A stretch of DNA of 13,636 nt, taken from positions 1 to 13,636 of the forward strand of contig CAMLCX010000082.1 of assembly GCA_946478635.1 (NCBI GenBank), given 5' to 3'. The notes beneath the pieces were generated by a model. That model was given only the letters and a program-made list of their open reading frames with translations. It was not told the origin of the DNA and made no database searches. This stretch comes from an uncultured Pseudomonadota bacterium. Its GTDB lineage: Bacteria > Desulfobacterota_B > Binatia > UBA9968. The translations under genes were made by a program, and so were the position numbers. Within the stretch, counting starts at the first letter, position 1; each line of letters starts with the position of its first letter. Positions 3,422 through 12,730 of this stretch are shown piece after piece.

Positions 3422-3650
3422 GTTGCACAAACTTGCCAAAAGTTCGCATATGTTCAATAAACAGGCAGAAAGCTCTCGGTGAATCAAATAAATGAAATAA
3501 AATGAAATCTATTGATTAGCTATTAGTGGTTAATGTGTGGGTTTTCCAAGGCTGGATAAATTGTCATGACTTCAGGAATCCGAGGAAGAAGAAGGAAGAA
3601 GAAGATGGTGTCTGAGCAGTTGCTAGAACCACATCTGCGAGGAGTTGACC

Positions 3651-4505
3651 ATGACCATGGTGGAAGAGCCGAATTACCAAGACCGCATCGAAAGAAATTA
3701 TCAGGTAGCGGTTAGGGAAAATGAAGTTGCTGGATTATGGCGTGATCTGACCGAGTTTCTGCCGCAATTTGGTCTCAAACCCATTTATGAGATCACATGC
3801 GTGGGAAGCGTCTATTTCGACAACAGAGACTTTGACCTAACGCGGTACACGATTTTAAACGGTGGTCGTCATATTCTTGTTCGGATCCGGACCTATGAAA
3901 ATTATGGCGAGTCTCCAAAGCCGATTTCATATTACTGGATCGAGGTAAAAATCAGACAAAAAGAGCGCTGGAGAAAAAAGAGATTCAAACTCAACAGGGC
4001 GGACCTGCCAGGGTTCATCACCGGCGGAGACGGCTTACAAAGCGCATTGGCTTACAATGATGGGACGGGTGCGGATCGAGCTGTTATTTGTGACTTATAT
4101 CGCGAGACTCAGGAAACAATCCTGACGACCGGCATAAAGCCGATGTTGTTGCTGACTTATCGGAGAGTAGCATTCCAGGGTGACATCCAGAGGGTTTGTC
4201 TCGACTGGGATATTCAGTACTACCATGTAGGCGCAAACGTCTATGCTTACGATTCATGGAAGTATCCCGTGGAAGAGCCAGTAGGGAAATCAACAAAAGC
4301 GATTCTGGAGATCAAGCATCCGCAGGGTCGTCTTCCGGATTGGGTCCCAGATTTAGAAAGACGCTATCCTATTTTGCGGACCAATTTTTCGAAATATGTG
4401 GAAGGCATGGGATTTTTATTTCACGGGCCGCTGAAACATCATAAAGAGGCAGAATACTTTACCCCGAGGATTGACAACTATATGGCGAACAGCGAACGAC
4501 TGTAA
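3651..4505 (+). CDS. VTC-domain (TTM-fold) polyphosphate polymerase-like protein
   Basis: The protein resembles the VTC domain of the triphosphate tunnel metalloenzyme superfamily, whose yeast Vtc4 member makes polyphosphate from ATP. The tunnel residues come in the expected order: YFDN near residue 58, RIR at 78-80, EVK at 98-100, a basic KKR cluster near 108-110, TYRR near 167-170, ILEIKHP with Glu at about 220, and SKY at 247-249. The first tunnel strand reads IERNYQV, with Asn16 where many relatives have Lys (ERKY). No membrane segment or signal peptide is seen, so it is probably cytosolic. I chose ATG 3651 because GGAG lies 6 bases upstream; a TTG at 3645 would add two residues. It heads the seven-gene run, 18 bases before the permease start. 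The family call is fairly firm; polymerase activity is not proven. Confidence 0.8.
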   Translation: MTMVEEPNYQDRIERNYQVAVRENEVAGLWRDLTEFLPQFGLKPIYEITCVGSVYFDNRDFDLTRYTILNGGRHILVRIRTYENYGESPKPISYYWIEVKIRQKERWRKKRFKLNRADLPGFITGGDGLQSALAYNDGTGADRAVICDLYRETQETILTTGIKPMLLLTYRRVAFQGDIQRVCLDWDIQYYHVGANVYAYDSWKYPVEEPVGKSTKAILEIKHPQGRLPDWVPDLERRYPILRTNFSKYVEGMGFLFHGPLKHHKEAEYFTPRIDNYMANSERL

Positions 4506-4523
4506 GTGGGTAAGGTAAAAGGA

Positions 4524-5705
4524 ATGGAGAGTCATAAACCGACCATCGGCATCATAGCTTTCGGGTATTGGAGCCAGGCGCTGACAAATGGTGCCCTGAG
4601 AGTTGTTGTGCCTGTCTACTTTGCCGCTAGCGGCATGGCCATTTCCAAGATCGCTTTCCTGTTTTTTCTATTCAAGTTTGCGGAAATTTTTGCGCCCATG
4701 GGCATCGGAGTCATGCTCAACCGTTGGGGTTACAAAAAGACCTTCTTGACCGGGTTGATAATGCACAGCGTCATTTCATTGTTTTACATGATTCCCGGTG
4801 TGGTCTTCATTTACGTGGAAAGATTTGTTCGTGGTCTTCTGTACATGTCTGATATAAGCGCAGTCTACGTCAAACATTTTTCTCCCAAGCAGAATCAGAG
4901 ATTTCTGATCAACATGATTCTCGGGCTTAAGGAGGCATCGAAGGGCGTTGGTATGATTGCCGGAGGGCTGTTGATCGCTGTGTTCACGATTGAAAAGACG
5001 CTCTCCATTTTTTCGGTTGTAACGGCCCTCTCCGCTCTATGCGCGTTTCGCTATCTCCCGGATATGAGGGAACAAATAAAGTTGCCGGTGCTCAAAATCT
5101 GGGGCGCAGCGGACAGAAAGATCAAAACTTTGGGATTGGGGTTTGGCCTGCTCAACGGGGCACTGGACGCTTGGGGAGTTGTTGTCCTCCCAGTGTATCT
5201 TACGAAAGTTTTGGGTGTAACTCCGGCTTTTGTCGGCACCGTGTTGATGGCTGAGTATATTTTTCAAGGATTGATTGTTACTTTTTTTTCGAAATTCGTG
5301 AATCTCGGATGGGAACCCCGGAGACTGGTAGTCATCGCGGGGTTTTTGCTCGTTCCGGTAAGTATTGCTTTTACCCTTGCGACCACGCTCCCTGCGTATT
5401 TAATAATCGTTTTTATTTTTATGTTTCTCTTCAGCGTGGCGATGGTTTACTATAATCACCTAATGCTGGACTTCGCGAGTGAAGAAAAAACGTCGCTTGA
5501 TCTTGCGACTTATACCACGCTGACAAATGTGTTTAAGCCCATCGGTGTTTTTGTGTCGGGCGTTCTGGCAGAATCAATGGGTTTTAGTTGGCCCTATTAC
5601 TTTGCTGCTCTTTTGGCTATTTTGTCTGCTTTGACATGTCTTGCTCTTCCCAGGTCAACAACCCAAGAAGCCGCTGCTGTCGGCACCTATGCGACTGAAT
5701 CTTAG
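4524..5705 (+). CDS. Major facilitator superfamily permease
   Basis: A polytopic membrane protein of 393 residues with about eleven to twelve hydrophobic segments, consistent with the MFS fold. A motif-A-like loop follows the second helix (GVMLNRWGYKK, with Asn where Asp is common). The central loop between halves is basic (LPVLKIWGAADRKIK). The second half contains LLNGALDAWGVVVLPVYL. The substrate is not identifiable by eye; phosphate, a phosphonate or another anion would fit the neighbours, but this is inference. ATG 4524 is preferred because AAGG lies 8 bases before it. A GTG at 4506, abutting the previous stop codon, would add six residues but has no ribosome-binding site. It lies between the VTC gene and the binding-protein gene, with a 27-bp gap to the latter. 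Confidence 0.8.
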   Translation: MESHKPTIGIIAFGYWSQALTNGALRVVVPVYFAASGMAISKIAFLFFLFKFAEIFAPMGIGVMLNRWGYKKTFLTGLIMHSVISLFYMIPGVVFIYVERFVRGLLYMSDISAVYVKHFSPKQNQRFLINMILGLKEASKGVGMIAGGLLIAVFTIEKTLSIFSVVTALSALCAFRYLPDMREQIKLPVLKIWGAADRKIKTLGLGFGLLNGALDAWGVVVLPVYLTKVLGVTPAFVGTVLMAEYIFQGLIVTFFSKFVNLGWEPRRLVVIAGFLLVPVSIAFTLATTLPAYLIIVFIFMFLFSVAMVYYNHLMLDFASEEKTSLDLATYTTLTNVFKPIGVFVSGVLAESMGFSWPYYFAALLAILSALTCLALPRSTTQEAAAVGTYATES

Positions 5706-5732
5706 CTCTCGATTAATTTAAGGAGAGACACG

Positions 5733-6653
5733 ATGCAAAAAGTCGGTACCTGTCTGGTTTTTGTTTTATTTTTAATCTTGCCTCGTGTTTTCAACCCTTC
5801 TTACGTAATCGCGGACGAGGGGAAGGTGCTTGTTTTCGGCAGAGTCTTTGACGATCCGGTCAGAGCGATAAGGGATCGGCAAGAATTTGTTGACTATTTG
5901 GCAAAAAAACTGGCCTCGTCCGGCATAACTAGCGGTAAGATTTTGGTAGTTGAAAAAATGCACATGCTCTCTCAGGCACTCAAAGAGGGCAAAGTGGATC
6001 TCTTTCATGACAGCGTGGTGCCGACGCTCGTGCTCTCGAAGCGCGCAGGATCCGTGCCCATTTTAAGGCAGTGGAAATATGGCGAGGCCGATTACAAGGG
6101 GCTCATCGTGGTCAAGAAAAACAGCGGGATTAATTCTCTCGGTGATTTGAAGGGTAAGGTGATTGCGTTCGAAGAACCCCATTCCACTTCCGCCACCGTT
6201 CTTCCTCGGATGCTTTTAGAGGAGAAAAAGTTCAAGCTAATACAAATCAAAAACCCGGGCACCGTTAAACCAGACGCGATTGGATATGTCTACGGGAGTG
6301 ATGGCAATTCCGTAAATGTTCTACTCACAGGACGTGCGGATGCGGCTACTACGATTCACAGGGAATTTGACCGGTTGAAGCCGGAAATTCGTGACTCCTT
6401 AAAAGTTCTCGACACTACCGTATCGGTGCCTAGGACTCTGGTGGCCGTGCGCAAGGATCTTGATCCTAAACTGCTCAAGGATTTAAAAGAAATCCTACTG
6501 AACATGGATAAGGATGCGGAGGGTCAAGGGGTACTGAAGAGATCACAGAACACGACGAAATTCGACGAAATCCCGGCCGGTTCTCTGAACCAATTGAAAA
6601 GCATTGAAAAATACGTTTTTTCATCTTTGGGTAAAGAGGTGGATTCGTGGTAA
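5733..6653 (+). CDS. PhnD-like periplasmic substrate-binding protein
   Basis: A 306-residue secreted binding protein of the PhnD/SsuA/transferrin-like group (type 2 periplasmic fold). A hydrophobic signal peptide covers residues 4-27 with a plausible cleavage after VIA27. Family features include FDDPVRA, the DLFHDSVVPTLVLSKR stretch, YKGLIVVKKNSGINSLGDLKGK at the domain crossover, and EEPHSTSA (147-154), matching the position of the PhnD oxyanion-binding STSG loop. A strong AAGGAGA sits 6 bases before ATG. No ABC permease or ATPase gene adjoins it, and the next gene, 9 bases downstream, is a membrane kinase. A role as ligand receptor for that kinase is therefore more likely than transport. 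The ligand could be phosphate, phosphite, a phosphonate or something unrelated, since this group binds diverse molecules. Confidence 0.85.
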   Translation: MQKVGTCLVFVLFLILPRVFNPSYVIADEGKVLVFGRVFDDPVRAIRDRQEFVDYLAKKLASSGITSGKILVVEKMHMLSQALKEGKVDLFHDSVVPTLVLSKRAGSVPILRQWKYGEADYKGLIVVKKNSGINSLGDLKGKVIAFEEPHSTSATVLPRMLLEEKKFKLIQIKNPGTVKPDAIGYVYGSDGNSVNVLLTGRADAATTIHREFDRLKPEIRDSLKVLDTTVSVPRTLVAVRKDLDPKLLKDLKEILLNMDKDAEGQGVLKRSQNTTKFDEIPAGSLNQLKSIEKYVFSSLGKEVDSW

Positions 6654-6662
6654 GATCCGGCC

Positions 6663-8171
6663 ATGATTCTGCCGGTTAAGCTTACTCTCAAACTAAAGAT
6701 CTTCCTCTCCGTCGGCCTTTTTTATCTCGCCGCGGTCGGCACACTCACCTTCTTAACGATTCGCTCACAGAAGAACTTGCTCCTGGCTCAAATGGGTGAA
6801 AGAGCCAAGGTCGGTATCAGCCTTATGGAGCTAAGTGTGTCGGGTTCTCTTTACAAGCTCGATACCTATCGGCTTGAAACGATTGCCTCAGAAGCTAAGG
6901 CTCTGCCTAATGTCGAATATGCCTATATTTTCGACAGCGAAGGCCGAATAGTCGGTGACTACCATCCTGACCAGCGCCAACTTTTTTCAACCTTCACTGA
7001 CGCGCTGGGCCAGAAAATCATAAAATCCACCGCGACCTTGGTGGACCTCGATTACAAGAAGCAAATCCTGGATATCTCGAAGCCCGTAAAGCTCGGACAC
7101 GAACGATTGGGCGGGATTCGTCTTGGTTTTGATCTGAGCCCGATCCATAAAGACATTCAAGAAGTCACCTTCAAAGCGGTGGGAATTTCTTCCACCATTT
7201 TTTTGGTCGGACTGATCATTATTTTTATCATTACGTTCAGAATGACCAAGCCATTGGAGAGACTCACTCTGGCCGCGAAGCGCATTGAAGAGGGAGATCT
7301 CGGGTACCGCGTTTCCATCCGGCGCGACGACGAGATTGGCAGCCTGGCTACGGCGTTTGATCAAATGGCCGAGCGCTTGGCGCAGCGGGAAAAAGAGCTC
7401 AAAGACTCGCAAGCCATCCTGCGCCGGGCGGACCGGCTTTCCTCGCTCGGGCTCCTGACTGCCGGGCTGGCGCATGAAATTCGTAACCCGCTCGTCGCGA
7501 TCCGAACGTTCACCCAGCTTTTACCCGAGCGCTACGAGGATGCCGAGTTCCGAGAGGGATTTCAGGGGCTCGCCTTGAAGGAAGTTGACCGCATTTGCGG
7601 TCTAATTAACGACCTTTTGAGCTTTGCTCGCCCATCCAAGCCGAATGTCGCGCCAGAAAATGTCAACGACGTCGTCGATAACATCGCACGGATTCTCGAA
7701 TCTCAGGCAAAAGAGAAAAACGTGGAAGTAATGCGCAGGTTCGGTAGCGAACTTCCCAAGGTATGGATTGACAGAGAGCAGATGAAGCAGGTATTTATGA
7801 ACCTCATTTTGAACGCCATCCAGGCCATGAGCAATGGCGGCTCGATTGTGATCGCGACGAGTCTTTCGGCAAAGAGCGACTCTGAACTGATACGAGAATA
7901 TGTGCAGATTGAGATTCGTGACACCGGGATTGGTATTCCGCAAGAAAATTTGGAGCAGATTTTCGATCCGTTTTTTACGAGCAAGGATGAAGGCAGCGGT
8001 TTGGGTCTCGCGGTGTCCCATCAGATCGTACAAGAACACGGGGGTTTTGTTACGGTCGAGAGTACGATTGGAAAGGGGACGTCATTCTTCGTCCATGTGC
8101 CCGTTGGCAAGCCGATTCGGCCGGCGACCAATGGTCACGCTCACGTGAATGAAGCGAATCTTAGTCATTGA
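6663..8171 (+). CDS. Membrane sensor histidine kinase (HAMP-HisKA-HATPase)
   Basis: A 502-residue inner-membrane kinase. Order: transmembrane helix at about 10-32, a periplasmic sensor domain of about 138 residues with Cache-like features (YAYIFDSEGRIVGDY), a second helix at about 171-193, a HAMP linker to about 246, the DHp helix with HEIRNP and phospho-acceptor His271, then a complete ATPase domain: N box NLILNAIQAM, G1 RDTGIGIP, F box FDPFFTSK and G2 GSGLGLAVS. All catalytic residues are present, so it should autophosphorylate. It starts 9 bases after the binding-protein gene and overlaps the next gene by 23 bases, indicating translational coupling. Likely partners are the upstream binding protein and the NtrC-type regulator downstream. 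Its DHp helix is strikingly close to that of the degenerate protein encoded next. Confidence 0.93.
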   Translation: MILPVKLTLKLKIFLSVGLFYLAAVGTLTFLTIRSQKNLLLAQMGERAKVGISLMELSVSGSLYKLDTYRLETIASEAKALPNVEYAYIFDSEGRIVGDYHPDQRQLFSTFTDALGQKIIKSTATLVDLDYKKQILDISKPVKLGHERLGGIRLGFDLSPIHKDIQEVTFKAVGISSTIFLVGLIIIFIITFRMTKPLERLTLAAKRIEEGDLGYRVSIRRDDEIGSLATAFDQMAERLAQREKELKDSQAILRRADRLSSLGLLTAGLAHEIRNPLVAIRTFTQLLPERYEDAEFREGFQGLALKEVDRICGLINDLLSFARPSKPNVAPENVNDVVDNIARILESQAKEKNVEVMRRFGSELPKVWIDREQMKQVFMNLILNAIQAMSNGGSIVIATSLSAKSDSELIREYVQIEIRDTGIGIPQENLEQIFDPFFTSKDEGSGLGLAVSHQIVQEHGGFVTVESTIGKGTSFFVHVPVGKPIRPATNGHAHVNEANLSH

Positions 8172-10041
8172 TGAATCGGAGGTCGTCCGAGAGACGTTGG
8201 CTCTCATCCTTGGGAGCGAATTTGTCATTGTCAAGCGACCGCTCAAGGCTAACGAATTTCCCATCGCCGATGTGCGCGAAGTCGATCTCTTAATCCTCGG
8301 CGTCACGCCTCAGCTAGGTGCCGAAACCGCCAGACTCTTGCGTTTTGCCGCGCGATTGCCGTTTGCGGTCCTATTTCTAGTGGAAAGCAAATCGATCGCG
8401 AGAGCGATTGAAACCACGGGCGAGATTCCTTGTCTAACGAAACCCTTCAACCCGTACGAGTTGCATCAGAAAGTCGGGCAGTTGTTGGCGCGACGAACGG
8501 ATTTCCCGGGGTCCGGCGACTTAGAGCACCGCCAGGAGTCAGAAGATTATTTGCCGTATCTGGATTTTCCTTATCTCAGCCGGAGTGCGGCGAGCTTAGC
8601 GCGCCGATTTGGCGCCGCGCCATTGCCGCTTCTGATTGCCGGTGAAATGGGCTGTGGCCAGACTCGAGTTGTGGCCGGGATTTGCAATCTCGGTGGGATG
8701 TCGAAATTGCGTGTTTCAATGAATGCAGTCGAAATCAGCGAGGAGTACCTGGAGCAAAAAAATCTTGAGCTGTCGTTGCAATCGCACTTTTATGCTTCAC
8801 CGACGACTCTGATCATCGAAAACCTGGAAAAATGTTCTTCCGCGGGTCAGTCGTTGCTCTTAAACTTTCTCCAAGAGGGGAATGATAGACGGACGGCGGT
8901 GCGCTATTTAACGACAGCCAATTTAGAATTGTTGGAGAAAGTCTATCGCGGCGAGTTTCTCGATTCACTTTACTATCGGCTCGCGACGCTCACGCTCAAG
9001 TTGGCACCCCTCCGAGAACGGCGGGACGAGATCCCGATTGTGGCGGAATGGTTCGCGCGCGAGTTCGCGAAAAGATTGGGATTGAGGGAGCCGGAGTTGT
9101 CTGAAGACGCAAAACGCCGTCTGACGAATTACCTTTGGTTTGGCAACTTGCACGAGATGGAAACCGTGATTGCACGCACTCTTGCGTATCGTCGAAATTC
9201 ACGGATCGACGGCACTGATCTCATTTTCGACTTTAGCGTTCCGCATCCGAGCGACGGGAGCGAATTTGCCGAATTCGCGCCCGTTGAAGCGCGTCCGAAT
9301 CGAGAAGGCAGCGACTTCCAGTTTGAAGTTTACAGCCGCGGTCCGGCGCCGACTTCGTCCATTAACGGGCACGTAAAGATAGCGGATTTGACCGCGCTGA
9401 TTCACGAGCTTGCTCATGAACTCAAGAATCCTATGGTGACGATCAAAACCTTCGCGCAGCTGCTCGGCGATCGCTATGAAGACGAAAACTTCCGAAGCCG
9501 CTTTCAAGAGGTTGTTGGAAGCGATATCGAGCGCATGGATGAGCTTTTGGAAGTCCTCATCGAATTCGCCGACTTCACGCGACCCCGCTTGAGCCATGTG
9601 GCGCTGAGTGAAAAAATCCGCACCGTGCTGAACGGCATTCGGCTCGAGGGCGCCGAACGGCAGACGCGGGTCACGTGGAAGGGAAACGGCGGCGCCGACA
9701 TCATACAAATCGACGAGTCTCAACTGGAATACATATTGAAAAACATCTTGAGGGTGACGCTGTCCGATGTCAGAATGGGGAGTGAGATCGAAATCGATCT
9801 TTCAACGGCAGGCACTGTGGGGATTACTTACCTGCGTGAAGGCGCACGGGTGGCCTCAATCTCCCATTACTTGGCAGAGCAGAATTTGCCTGAGAACACA
9901 GGCATTCTTCCGTTGCGTGTTTTGCTCGCAAAACAACTGCTGGAAAGCAACGGTGGACGTTTCATGATCCATTCCCCGGATGGCGAGAAAGAGACTTTGA
10001 AATTGGAGTTTCCGCTTGCCGAGCACCGAAATGAAAACTGA
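8149..10041 (+). CDS. Degenerate REC-AAA+-histidine kinase hybrid (likely pseudoenzyme)
   Basis: A 630-residue soluble protein with three recognisable but catalytically altered modules. Residues 1-115 resemble a receiver (ILVIDES, TKPF with Lys98), but the phospho-acceptor position is Gly51. Residues about 140-365 resemble the NtrC AAA+ module, with LAPLRERRDEIP and YLWFGNLHEME intact. Walker A is GEMGCGQT with Gln171 replacing Lys, Walker B Asp-Glu is Glu224-Asn225, the sensor-2 Arg position is His335, and the sigma-54-contacting GAFTGA loop is missing. Residues about 410-625 resemble a kinase: H-box HELKNP keeps His423, but the N-box catalytic Asn is Val536 and no G1 or G2 box is seen. No DNA-binding HTH follows. 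The frame is open throughout and the gene is translationally coupled on both sides, so it is unlikely to be decay. A scaffold or phosphotransferase role is inferred. Confidence 0.85.
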   Translation: MKRILVIDESEVVRETLALILGSEFVIVKRPLKANEFPIADVREVDLLILGVTPQLGAETARLLRFAARLPFAVLFLVESKSIARAIETTGEIPCLTKPFNPYELHQKVGQLLARRTDFPGSGDLEHRQESEDYLPYLDFPYLSRSAASLARRFGAAPLPLLIAGEMGCGQTRVVAGICNLGGMSKLRVSMNAVEISEEYLEQKNLELSLQSHFYASPTTLIIENLEKCSSAGQSLLLNFLQEGNDRRTAVRYLTTANLELLEKVYRGEFLDSLYYRLATLTLKLAPLRERRDEIPIVAEWFAREFAKRLGLREPELSEDAKRRLTNYLWFGNLHEMETVIARTLAYRRNSRIDGTDLIFDFSVPHPSDGSEFAEFAPVEARPNREGSDFQFEVYSRGPAPTSSINGHVKIADLTALIHELAHELKNPMVTIKTFAQLLGDRYEDENFRSRFQEVVGSDIERMDELLEVLIEFADFTRPRLSHVALSEKIRTVLNGIRLEGAERQTRVTWKGNGGADIIQIDESQLEYILKNILRVTLSDVRMGSEIEIDLSTAGTVGITYLREGARVASISHYLAEQNLPENTGILPLRVLLAKQLLESNGGRFMIHSPDGEKETLKLEFPLAEHRNEN

Positions 10042-11449
10042 CATGAGCCAGCCACTGTTATTGGTCGTTGACGATGAAGCAGGCGTAAGGCAGTCCCTGC
10101 AGATGGTATTTAACAAATCCTACAACGTGCTCGAAGCGCCTTCGGCGGAGGAAGCCGTCCAAAAAGCATCCAATGAAAGGCCCGACGTTGTTTTATTGGA
10201 CATTATGATGCCGGGGACGGACGGACTGGCCGTATTGAAACAAATCAAATCGGTACATCCCGATTGCCAGGTGATCATGCTGACAGGACTCAACACGGCG
10301 CGCACGGCGTTTGTCGCCAAGGGTACCGGCGCCTTCGACTACGTGACCAAGCCATTCGACGTCGAAGAGCTGCGCATGCGCGTGGAACATGCACTGGAGA
10401 AGGTTCAGCTTTCGCGCGAGCTAGAGCGGTTGAAGGAAGAGGTCGGCCGGAAATATGGCGTCGAGCACGTCATCGGTAAATCGAAGCAGATCATCGATGT
10501 TTTCAAAGCCGTTAGTATGGTAGCCGCCAAGAAGAGCACTGTTTTGATCACCGGAGAAAGCGGTACCGGCAAGGAACTAATTGCTCGAGCGATTCACTAT
10601 AATAGCGACCGGCGCGCCAAGCCCTTTGTGGTGGTGAACTGCGCCGCTTTGCCGGACACGTTGATCGAGAGCGAGTTGTTTGGATACGAGAGAGGCGCCT
10701 TCACCAACGCTTCGCAGAAAAAGATAGGGCGCTTCGAATTGGCGCACGGCGGAACGCTGTTTTTGGATGAGATCGGCGAGCTCAATCTGAGCACGCAGGC
10801 AAAGTTTCTGCGCGCCATCGAACAGGAAACCTTCACCCGACTGGGCGGCATCGAAGAGATCAAGGTGGATGTTCGGGTGGTTGCCGCGAGCAATCGAGAT
10901 CTCGAGCATATGGCGAAAAACGCCGAGTTTCGCCCGGATTTATTCTATCGGCTGAACGTCGTGTCCCTGTTCCTTTCGCCTTTACGGGAGCGGCGCGATG
11001 ATATTGCCTTGTTGCTCGACCATTTTCTGCGCCTGAAAGCGCAGGAGCATTCGATCGTTGCCAAGACGCTTTCTCCCGAAGTGGTGGACTTTTTCGTTTC
11101 CTACCCGTGGCCCGGCAATATTCGCGAACTGGAAAATCTCATCGAACGTCTTACTATTCTCACGCCACACGAAACCGTAATGCTGCGCGACCTCCCGGTA
11201 GGCATGCGGTCGACGGATCAGACCGCAACACTGAAAGAAGATGTACTCAGTGGATCGCGACCGTTGAGCGATGCAGTGGACGAATTCGAGCGCGAACTTA
11301 TCGTCAAGGCCTTACAACGCACCGGATTCAACCAGACCAAGGCCGCCTCTCTGCTAGGGACTAGCCGGCGGATACTCAAATATCGCATCGAGAAACTCAA
11401 AATAATCGACCCAAACGACTCGGATGAGGAATTGAAGCTTTCGACATAA
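10031..11449 (+). CDS. NtrC-family sigma-54-dependent response regulator
   Basis: Transcription activator with receiver, AAA+ and Fis-type HTH domains, about 472 residues. The receiver has VVDDE, phospho-acceptor Asp57 in LLDIMMPG, and TKPFD. The AAA+ part has Walker A GESGTGKE (Lys181), Walker B TLFLDEIGEL, RPDLFYRLNV containing the arginine finger, LSPLRERRDDI, and WPGNIRELENLI with the sensor-2 Arg. The sigma-54-contacting loop is GAFTNA (222-227) rather than the commonest GAFTGA. The C-terminus FNQTKAASLLGTSRRILKYRIEKL is a Fis-like HTH. The start is uncertain: ATG 10031 overlaps the preceding gene by 11 bases; ATG 10043 lies one base after its stop codon; TTG 10016 has GGAG 7 bases upstream. 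It is presumably phosphorylated by the kinase at 6663-8171 and probably acts at the sigma-54 promoter found downstream. Confidence 0.94.
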   Translation: MKTDMSQPLLLVVDDEAGVRQSLQMVFNKSYNVLEAPSAEEAVQKASNERPDVVLLDIMMPGTDGLAVLKQIKSVHPDCQVIMLTGLNTARTAFVAKGTGAFDYVTKPFDVEELRMRVEHALEKVQLSRELERLKEEVGRKYGVEHVIGKSKQIIDVFKAVSMVAAKKSTVLITGESGTGKELIARAIHYNSDRRAKPFVVVNCAALPDTLIESELFGYERGAFTNASQKKIGRFELAHGGTLFLDEIGELNLSTQAKFLRAIEQETFTRLGGIEEIKVDVRVVAASNRDLEHMAKNAEFRPDLFYRLNVVSLFLSPLRERRDDIALLLDHFLRLKAQEHSIVAKTLSPEVVDFFVSYPWPGNIRELENLIERLTILTPHETVMLRDLPVGMRSTDQTATLKEDVLSGSRPLSDAVDEFERELIVKALQRTGFNQTKAASLLGTSRRILKYRIEKLKIIDPNDSDEELKLST

Positions 11450-11560: not shown

Positions 11561-11576
11561 TGGCATATTACTTGCT
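11561..11576 (+). promoter_or_regulatory. Sigma-54 (-24/-12) promoter
   Basis: TGGCATATTACTTGCT fits the sigma-54 consensus TGGCAYR-N4-TTGCW at every specified position, with the invariant GG and GC at the correct 10-base separation. It lies directly downstream of a gene for a sigma-54 activator and directly upstream of the REC-kinase gene. Transcription is predicted to start near 11587, only a few bases before the ATG at 11591. Confidence 0.8.
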
Positions 11577-11590
11577 CAAATGCTCGCTTT

Positions 11591-12730
11591 ATGGATGCTA
11601 CCAAATCGCACATTTTGATCGTTGACGACGAAATGGGTCCAAGGGAATCCCTCAAAATGATTCTCAACCCTTACTATAACGTATACACGGCCGACCGCGG
11701 TACTCAGGCAGTCGAGATGCTGAAGCAGCACCCCATCGATCTGGTCACTTTAGACCTCAAGATGCCGGGCTTCAGCGGCATCCACGTTTTGGAAAAAGTA
11801 AAGCGCCACGACCCCGACATCGAAGCGATTATCATCACTGGCTATGGCTCCTTGGATACCGCCATCGAGGGACTTCGACTCGGCGCCTTTGACTACATCT
11901 CTAAACCGTTTGATGTCAATCACATACTCGCTTTGGTGCGCCGTGGGCTAGAAAGACGCAACGCCAAGTCGCAACTCAGGCAGGTCAAATCCGACTTTCT
12001 ATCGAATATCTCGCACGAATTGAGAACTCCGCTCAGCGTCGTGGTCGGTTTCGTATATCTTCTACTGAACCAAGTCATCGGCAAGCTTACCGAAGAACAG
12101 CAGAAGGTGCTCGAGACCGTGTACCGGAACTCCGAAGAGTTGCTGGAACTGATCGACAACGTACTCTGGATGACTTCACTCAACGCGGGAGACGCGAGTG
12201 CGACGCTGGAGCGATTCGATCTCCGCAATGTCGTAAACGAAACGACGAAACGTTACGAGAAGACGATCCGCGAAAAAGGCCTGCGCCTGGATGTCAGACT
12301 CGCCGACAGTGAGATTGCGATTGTCAGCGATCGCGCCAAGATTGAACGCGTGTTTCAAAATGTGTTCAACAACGCCGTGAAATTTACTTCCGAGGGTGAG
12401 ATCGTCGTCAACGTGCAGCCTTCGGCACAGCGTAACAGCGTCGAGATCGAAATCACGGATACGGGCGTCGGCATTGAGCAAGGAAAGATCGATTCCATCT
12501 TCGAGCCTTTTCATCAAGCTGACAATTCGATTCACCGGTCCTATTCGGGGCTTGGCATCGGCCTCACCGTTGCGCGCCGGATGGCAGAGCTGATCGGCGG
12601 GAAACTAACGGTAACCAGCAAGCCCGGTGCCGGGACGCGCGTGACGATGAGTTTCCCATCCCATGTAGTTGCCGGACATCAGTTGACCGCGGCGGGTCGG
12701 TCGTTGACTGTCGAGCCGCGGTACGGATAA
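11591..12730 (+). CDS. Soluble REC-histidine kinase hybrid
   Basis: A 379-residue cytoplasmic protein with an N-terminal receiver joined to a complete kinase core. The receiver has HILIVDDE, phospho-acceptor Asp55 in TLDLKMPG, and ISKPFD. A short helical linker (LVRRGLERRNAKSQLRQVK) leads to the DHp H-box SHELRTP with His142, then N box VFQNVFNNAVKFT, G1 ITDTGVGI, F box FEPFHQAD and G2 YSGLGIGLTVA. All catalytic motifs are present. No membrane segment is seen. ATG 11591 is chosen over the GTG at 11549 because the latter lies upstream of the sigma-54 promoter and has no well-spaced ribosome-binding site. Even at 11591 no clear ribosome-binding site is visible. Such REC-kinases usually receive phosphate from one kinase and pass signals to other regulators; a feedback arm on this locus is inferred. 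Confidence 0.92.
   Translation: MDATKSHILIVDDEMGPRESLKMILNPYYNVYTADRGTQAVEMLKQHPIDLVTLDLKMPGFSGIHVLEKVKRHDPDIEAIIITGYGSLDTAIEGLRLGAFDYISKPFDVNHILALVRRGLERRNAKSQLRQVKSDFLSNISHELRTPLSVVVGFVYLLLNQVIGKLTEEQQKVLETVYRNSEELLELIDNVLWMTSLNAGDASATLERFDLRNVVNETTKRYEKTIREKGLRLDVRLADSEIAIVSDRAKIERVFQNVFNNAVKFTSEGEIVVNVQPSAQRNSVEIEITDTGVGIEQGKIDSIFEPFHQADNSIHRSYSGLGIGLTVARRMAELIGGKLTVTSKPGAGTRVTMSFPSHVVAGHQLTAAGRSLTVEPRYG

Follow-up and report, generated by a model that had tools for sequence, protein, structure and literature searches.

A pseudo-receiver–pseudo-AAA+ protein that retains an invariant DHp histidine is a candidate modulator of the adjacent NtrC-type activator

The window analysed here is a stretch of 13,636 nucleotides from an uncultured Pseudomonadota bacterium (assembly GCA_946478635.1, contig CAMLCX010000082.1, forward strand), in which a four-gene signalling cassette encodes a sensor kinase, a protein with receiver-, AAA+- and kinase-like parts (hereafter the hybrid), an NtrC-type activator and a REC-HisKA-HATPase protein (REC-kinase) (Table 1). 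The hybrid gene is an intact open frame, as the first-pass annotation of this DNA described it, and it overlaps both neighbours, sharing 23 bases (8149–8171) with the upstream kinase gene and 11 with the NtrC gene, whose ATG is at 10031. Sigma54_activ_2, AAA_lid_14, Sigma54_activat and HisKA matched above their Pfam cut-offs, Response_reg reached 14 bits, under its cut-off, and HATPase_c did not match; none of the nine Pfam family matches was a helix–turn–helix (HTH), the C terminus being DHp/CA instead. The proposed architecture of receiver (REC), sigma54-type AAA+ and DHp/CA modules in one chain was borne out by an AlphaFold model and structure comparison, which agreed on all three folds. 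The NtrC1 structure 1ny5 aligned over residues 2–362, the receiver structure 3t6k matched the pseudo-receiver by sequence (E 1.8e-4), and the REC–AAA+ fold with lid of NtrC-type sigma54 activators was present (1ny5 and 4l4u among the matches).

Table 1 Features of the cassette and of the hybrid protein. Counts are of family rows with a residue in the column unless loci are named.
Feature	Position	Strand	Remark
Sensor kinase	6663..8171	+	sCache, HAMP, HisKA and HATPase_c all over Pfam cut-off
Hybrid: pseudo-receiver / pseudo-AAA+ / DHp / pseudo-CA protein	8149..10041	+	630 amino acids (aa); subject of study
Pseudo-receiver, residues 1-116	8149..8496	+	helix alpha1 (11-22) and KPF loop conserved; alpha2 and alpha4 not
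Gly51, replacing receiver phospho-acceptor Asp	8299..8301	+	G 189, D 1 of 199 rows
Pseudo-AAA+ domain and lid, residues 134-362	8548..9234	+	GAFTGA loop absent
Gln171, replacing Walker A Lys	8659..8661	+	Q 145, R 30, K 19, H 11, V 3 of 208
Glu224-Asn225, replacing Walker B Asp-Glu	8818..8823	+	Asp 10, Glu 55 of 210 rows
DHp domain, residues 413-478	9385..9582	+	HisKA 34.4 bits; best-conserved part
His423, H-box phospho-acceptor histidine	9415..9417	+	209/209 rows with a residue there
Pseudo-CA domain, residues 479-626	9583..10026	+	predicted CA fold; catalytic Asn, G1 and G2 lost
NtrC-type activator	10031..11449	+	receiver, sigma54 AAA+, lid and Fis HTH all over cut-off
Candidate sigma54 -24/-12 site TGGCATATTACTTGCT, before the REC-kinase gene	11561..11576	+	similar placement in 21/25 loci
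REC-HisKA-HATPase protein, the cassette's fourth member	11591..12730	+	from Pfam and locus comparison

Motifs were counted in 210 distinct family rows, leaving out one fused relative (P0174, described below); denominators vary with the number of rows that carry a residue in the column. All the substitutions in the first-pass annotation were found where it placed them, namely G51, Q171, E224-N225, H335 for the sensor-2 Arg and V536 for the kinase catalytic Asn. The receiver fold lacks its phospho-acceptor Asp in 198 of 199 rows, and one locus (L003) has Gly in that column and Tyr one residue earlier. Walker A keeps invariant glycines (72-row alignment), and 118 of the 120 closest rows have Gln in place of its Lys. 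The GAFTGA loop was correctly reported missing, since no GAFTGA-like motif occurred in any of the 210 rows, and the shortening by 12 residues was confirmed as a Walker A-to-B spacing of 53 residues, compared with 65 in the neighbouring NtrC. On the kinase side, 16 of 207 rows have Asn at the N-box position, no G1-like motif was found within the last 160 residues of the 210 rows and, in accord with the annotated lack of G1 and G2, the N, G1 and G2 boxes through which HisKA histidine kinases bind ATP are not found in the window's protein. From these lost motifs we infer that it has no known ATP site intact. The family forms a graded series, with REC-less forms that keep the Walker A Lys at one end and forms in which all motifs are altered at the other. 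The fully intact orthologue of the same architecture that the annotation had named as a sign of local decay was not found among the 210 distinct rows.

The DHp domain is not degenerate: its H-box is intact and invariant. On this point the annotation, which had all modules degenerate and nearly every catalytic residue replaced, did not hold, because His423, Glu424 and Asn427 are in place. It had listed HELKNP among surviving structural motifs: the motif is there, but it is the catalytic H-box, with His, Glu, Asn and Pro all present, and belongs to the family's most conserved part. Asn427 (H+4) and Val430 (H+7), like the histidine, occur in 209 of 209 rows, so that the DivL-type replacement of the phospho-acceptor His is absent from these rows. 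Glu424 (H+1) occurs in 204 of 209, with Arg in the other five; HRxxN in place of HExxN was seen in L076, L077, L078, P0138 and P0166, all receiver-less relatives. H423, E424 and N427 fit the His plus E/DxxT/N motif described for HisKA transmitter phosphatases (PMC5727384), and the pairing of this His with a degenerate CA domain is the anatomy of Spo0B, ChpT and PhyT. Among the 120 closest rows, mean column entropy was 0.37 bits in the DHp domain (38 of 66 columns below 0.1), compared with 0.83 in the receiver, 1.37 in the AAA+ core, 1.17 in the lid and 1.30 in the CA domain. The ratio of nonsynonymous to synonymous differences (pN/pS), pooled over 11 pairs of which some share loci, was 0.088 for DHp, 0.311 for REC, 0.252 for AAA+, 0.325 for CA and 0.659 for the linker. 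As the most conserved and most constrained domain, the DHp is read here as the working part of the chain, and its intactness speaks for phosphoryl chemistry or for docking to a regulator more than for a pure scaffold.

The same architecture, with the same kinds of substitution, recurs in a large family, as the homologue search proposed in the annotation revealed. A protein search gave 662 matches at E<=1e-10 among 7996 candidates scored; in the best 120 of these 662, which include the window's own protein, the others are 55–85% identical over 88–100% of the query. A second search with distant members gave 6705 matches, ordinary NtrC proteins among them, and 53 rows from the best 120 of these were added to the family set. 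With the family profile, the gene was detected in at least 12 of the 395 genomes sampled from one phylum (E<=1e-60) and in at least 27 of 148 genomes of one class (E<=1e-55), both lower bounds because three and eight candidates, respectively, were scored per genome. Source taxa given for some relatives include Candidatus Binatia, Deltaproteobacteria and Thermodesulfobacteriota, among others. The ratio of nonsynonymous to synonymous substitution rates (dN/dS), also suggested as a check, was 0.11–0.43 for the hybrid gene in the 10 computable of 11 closer pairs (the window in none), and was lower than this for NtrC in 6/6 pairs, for the REC-kinase in 3/3 and for the neighbour kinase in 4/6. The hybrid gene thus evolves faster than NtrC, yet under purifying selection. 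Many catalytic residues are missing and dN/dS exceeds that of NtrC in every comparable pair, as local decay or an artefact might have it, but 210 rows with the same kinds of loss, together with the purifying selection, mean that the gene is not a product of local decay; we reject that explanation and regard it as scarcely conceivable. In a tree of AAA+ domains, 49 hybrid rows were split by a 100/100 branch from 27 cassette and 19 other NtrCs, which agrees with a single origin of the hybrid AAA+ domains, in a tree where the bootstrap was unsettled and several pseudo-domain rows formed long branches, some of whose joins may be false. The corresponding DHp tree was built on too few columns to place that domain's origin.

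Both putative docking surfaces of the hybrid resemble those of its own neighbours. At seven regulator-facing positions of DHp helix alpha1, identity was 0.68 to the own kinase (24 pairs) and 0.26 to 19 other N-type kinases, whereas at the other alpha1 positions it was 0.57 and 0.40, respectively. The own kinase was the top-scoring DHp match at 24 of 24 loci when set against each of 57 other kinases (from five genomes, cassette kinases excluded), with a narrow margin of 77 to 73 at L069. Helix alpha1 is the helix by which receivers dock on DHp domains. There the pseudo-receiver was 0.42 identical to its own NtrC, compared with 0.24 over the whole domain (21 pairs); cassette NtrCs compared with 17 other NtrCs gave 0.23 in alpha1 and 0.37 overall, hybrid pseudo-receivers compared with the same 17 gave 0.26 in alpha1, and a smaller comparison with six other NtrCs had the same alpha1 trend. 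The pseudo-receiver alpha1 therefore appears to have been selectively kept though the rest diverged. With an own-kinase-like DHp and an own-NtrC-like alpha1, one chain seems to hold both halves of the kinase–NtrC docking interface. The annotation had imagined a scaffold joining the kinase and the activator; docking features of both are indeed kept, but its premise that all modules are dead fails at the DHp.

The cassette itself is conserved to different degrees. Gene context was tallied at 40 loci, one per genome and the window included, leaving out partial matches in G521 and G522. A same-strand NtrC-type gene lies downstream at 37 of 37 judgeable loci (36 within 400 bases, L016 at about 660; the remaining three are contig ends), although its frame is split or cut at some, such as L001 and L069. 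The kinase gene lies upstream at 26 of 35 judgeable loci (five further are contig ends), and BLAST with the window's kinase found none adjacent at the other nine. The suggested link to the locus partners thus holds for NtrC, but that to the kinase is not universal. The REC-HisKA-HATPase gene was present at 29 of the 40 loci, not found at 3 and unclear at 8. Of the nine genomes in which no adjacent kinase was found, six have, within the top-ranking loci inspected, a distant kinase with the V+7/T+11/F+12 DHp pattern (L178, L179, L183, L185, L188 and L189); the distant kinase of G525 has T at +7, and none was seen in G464 or G456.

A sigma54-type site recurs ahead of the REC-kinase gene. Of 24 regions lying between the NtrC gene and the REC-kinase gene, 18 contain a match to a strict -24/-12 pattern (GG and GC fixed, at most two mismatches), compared with 0.36 expected from base shuffles. 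In 21 of 25 loci (the window, L001, L048-L050, L052-L063, L067, L068, L077 and L078), a looser pattern, picked after this result and outside the shuffles, which cover the strict pattern only, placed a site 49–92 bases 5′ of the first receiver strand; two loci lacked a site and two a detectable receiver motif. Across the whole window, sigma54-like sites with at most two mismatches were not above chance (7 found, 5.6 expected), and the case is therefore made by the recurring position across loci, not by abundance in the window. The cassette NtrC probably drives the REC-kinase gene, closing a circuit.

We propose that the hybrid is a dedicated modulator of the adjacent NtrC that is neither an ATPase nor a kinase, likely a phosphatase acting through its DHp and gated from its N terminus, a reading on which we are evenly balanced. 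The DHp helix pair, expected to dimerise by family membership, would dock on the NtrC receiver using the residues of the partner kinase, and His423 and Asn427 would remove phosphate from NtrC~P without ATP of their own; handing the phosphate over instead of removing it would be the main alternative. The pseudo-receiver, with the DHp-docking helix of NtrC, could sit as a decoy on a DHp, either its own, as a cap, or that of the kinase, and the N-terminal half made of pseudo-receiver and pseudo-AAA+ may stand in for a sensor module that senses the state of the partner and gates the action of the DHp. An ATP-free phosphatase acting on NtrC is favoured because the His, a phosphatase-type Asn and an NtrC-docking-like surface are kept, and because the DHp of HK853 offers a precedent: it has been used to assay dephosphorylation, in which His260 and Thr264 (E/DxxT/N motif) play a part (PMC5727384). 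For the decoy, the ShkA pseudo-receiver is described as binding and inhibiting HisKA (PMC12632262). A further step, proposed tentatively and with considerable doubt, is a two-faced regulator that, having both docking halves and a dead AAA+ part, would read NtrC phosphorylation or assembly and turn NtrC off by means of an ATP-free DHp, within a conserved four-gene feedback circuit.

Several observations weigh against the proposed phosphatase role and its details. Sequence alone does not separate a phosphatase from a phosphotransferase. PhyP, with HRxxN and a degenerate ATPase domain, was originally described as a phosphatase, yet is reported as a phosphotransferase with no phosphatase activity detected, its authors leaving dephosphorylation in vivo possible (PMC5898713); a phosphatase function is also disputed as a general role of pseudo-kinases, and the His is described as not essential to HisKA phosphatase activity (PMC12632262). 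The AlphaFold model has a predicted template modelling score (pTM) of 0.42, so the domain arrangement is not fixed by it. The KPF loop shows no preference for the own NtrC (identity 0.49, compared with 0.50 to other NtrCs), and the nine loci without an adjacent kinase tend to differ at DHp +12/+15 (F/L to I/V, H). Common descent from the neighbouring genes could explain part of both docking likenesses; constraint beyond descent is argued for by invariance across distant clades.

Phosphotransfer as in PhyT is, by analogy, the strongest rival to the phosphatase reading. As a histidine phosphotransferase of the Spo0B/ChpT/PhyT kind, the hybrid would relay phosphate through His423 between a receiver, for example that of the REC-kinase, and NtrC, in either direction. 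Such proteins, named degenerate kinases (PMC5898713), share the anatomy of a DHp with His and a dead CA, the cassette offers two intact receivers, those of NtrC and the REC-kinase, and the H and H+4 N are invariant; we nevertheless consider it rather unlikely, because a neighbouring kinase, at loci that have one, would be expected to act on NtrC without a relay, no REC-kinase gene was detected at 3 of 32 judgeable loci and the acidic residue after the His is Arg in five rows. The hybrid might otherwise pair its DHp with that of the sensor kinase, whose CA would phosphorylate it or be silenced by it. That the DHp is nearest its own neighbour kinase at every locus compared fits this heterodimer, as does the heterodimerisation of the native ChrS and HrrS kinases, but none was observed with a truncated ChrS pseudo-kinase in the same account (PMC9491836), and the nine loci without an adjacent kinase, although six of them are in genomes with a matching distant one, make it unlikely.

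The retained docking surface and dead CA domain would also suit a non-catalytic sensor that binds NtrC~P and signals to another protein, in the manner of DivL, whose DHp surface recognises DivK~P (PMC4211667) and whose structure 4q20 was among the fold matches. DivL has Tyr550 in place of the His (PMC4211667), and the invariant His and Asn of the family would be unneeded for binding alone, which leaves this reading quite improbable. Most doubtful among the ways of acting on NtrC is the suggestion that the protein is a scaffold or poison subunit entering or capping the NtrC AAA+ ring. It accords with the retained AAA+ fold, lid and Walker A glycines, the Lys-to-Gln change and the missing GAFTGA; however, the AAA+ part is more variable than the DHp, the column of the putative second Arg finger is K in 115 and R in 79 of 210 rows, leaving conservation of a ring interface unsupported, and no observation here requires the ring entry or capping raised in the annotation. 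We consider it very improbable. The preferred reading remains that of a modulator acting on NtrC through the DHp.

Precedents for the parts exist singly, namely degenerate-kinase phosphotransferases, DivL, pseudo-receivers acting on HisKA and circuits of NtrC with a REC-kinase; what appears new, within the open-licence literature, is their combination in a DHp protein that is not a kinase and whose front half is a pseudo-NtrC. In that literature, where coverage is incomplete and absence therefore weakly evidenced, no REC–AAA+–DHp protein without ATPase was found described. PhyT/PhyP, Spo0B and ChpT likewise pair a degenerate ATPase domain with a DHp whose His can be phosphorylated, and the HRxxN form of PhyP is shared by the five REC-less relatives, but no pseudo-receiver/pseudo-AAA+ half is described for them in the passages of PMC5898713 drawn on here; the hybrid family differs in its predominant HExxN and in an adjoining NtrC-type activator gene. 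DivL too reuses a kinase fold with a regulator-docking surface and no expected kinase activity of its own (PMC4211667), but lost the His that this family retains. NtrC-family enhancer-binding proteins (1ny5, 4l4u) share a sequence-detectable REC and sigma54-type AAA+ with lid, whereas in the hybrid no phospho-Asp, GAFTGA or HTH was found, the Walker motifs are altered and the C terminus is DHp/CA. ShkA, and similarly CikA, combine an Asp-less receiver and a DHp in one chain, but as autophosphorylating hybrid kinases, as described in PMC12632262; in the hybrid the kinase is dead, and the receiver and DHp are separated by an AAA+ domain. The NmpRSTU system of Myxococcus xanthus resembles the cassette in its NtrC-like regulator, REC-HisKA-CA protein and further kinase, and in an NmpR-dependent promoter before signalling genes, comparable to the sigma54-type site here, but a REC–AAA+–DHp protein is not described in the sections of PMC11841059 used. 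Archaeal 'HisKA, no HATPase' proteins have a DHp with His and no recognisable ATPase, and phosphatase activity was raised as a possibility by the authors; they are archaeal, carry PAS/GAF sensors, and AAA+ goes unmentioned in the relevant part of that paper (PMC5847659).

Relatives of the hybrid that are named at source carry labels such as 'DNA-binding NtrC family response regulator' and 'sigma 54-interacting transcriptional regulator'. These labels mislead, because the relatives lack the loop that contacts sigma54, and the search of the window's protein gave no DNA-binding domain. The graded family lets one ask what stays useful after the ATPase, phospho-acceptor and kinase functions vanish, and a testable answer that it suggests is the DHp docking helix with its histidine.

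Elsewhere in the window, genes for a VTC-domain, an MFS and a PhnD-type binding protein lie at 3645–6653; the MFS protein is ArsJ-like at 104 bits, below the cut-off of 400. VTC, MFS and PhnD-like genes recur in L049, L051, L055, L056, L057 and L064, and the PhnD-like gene also in L054, at a contig start. At loci with these genes the kinase matches the window's kinase full length, whereas kinases of 711–780 aa that match only its C-terminal half belong to loci without them. This company hints at a phosphate-, phosphonate- or arsenate-related input, and the signalling cassette seems to be the constant unit, with an input that varies. A beta-ketoacyl synthase gene lies upstream of the cassette in two distant clades (L074, 10873–12111; L078, 3867–5165).

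The hybrid gene was also met beside REC-kinase matches in four further genomes (L173-L176). Among eight REC-kinase regions, these four newly contained the hybrid gene, that of G526 was a known locus, the G509 contig begins at NtrC and the G463 region shows the REC-kinase only; L170 (G511) is a cassette remnant with a truncated and split NtrC and a REC-kinase, in which the kinase and hybrid genes were not found. Finally, in P0174 a GAFTGA-less AAA+ domain is fused through a middle region to a PAS-HisKA-HATPase kinase with the same DHp type. The kinase motifs of P0174 look intact by eye (its PAS and HATPase_c annotations are precomputed), which suggests that such AAA+ modules can act as kinase N-termini.

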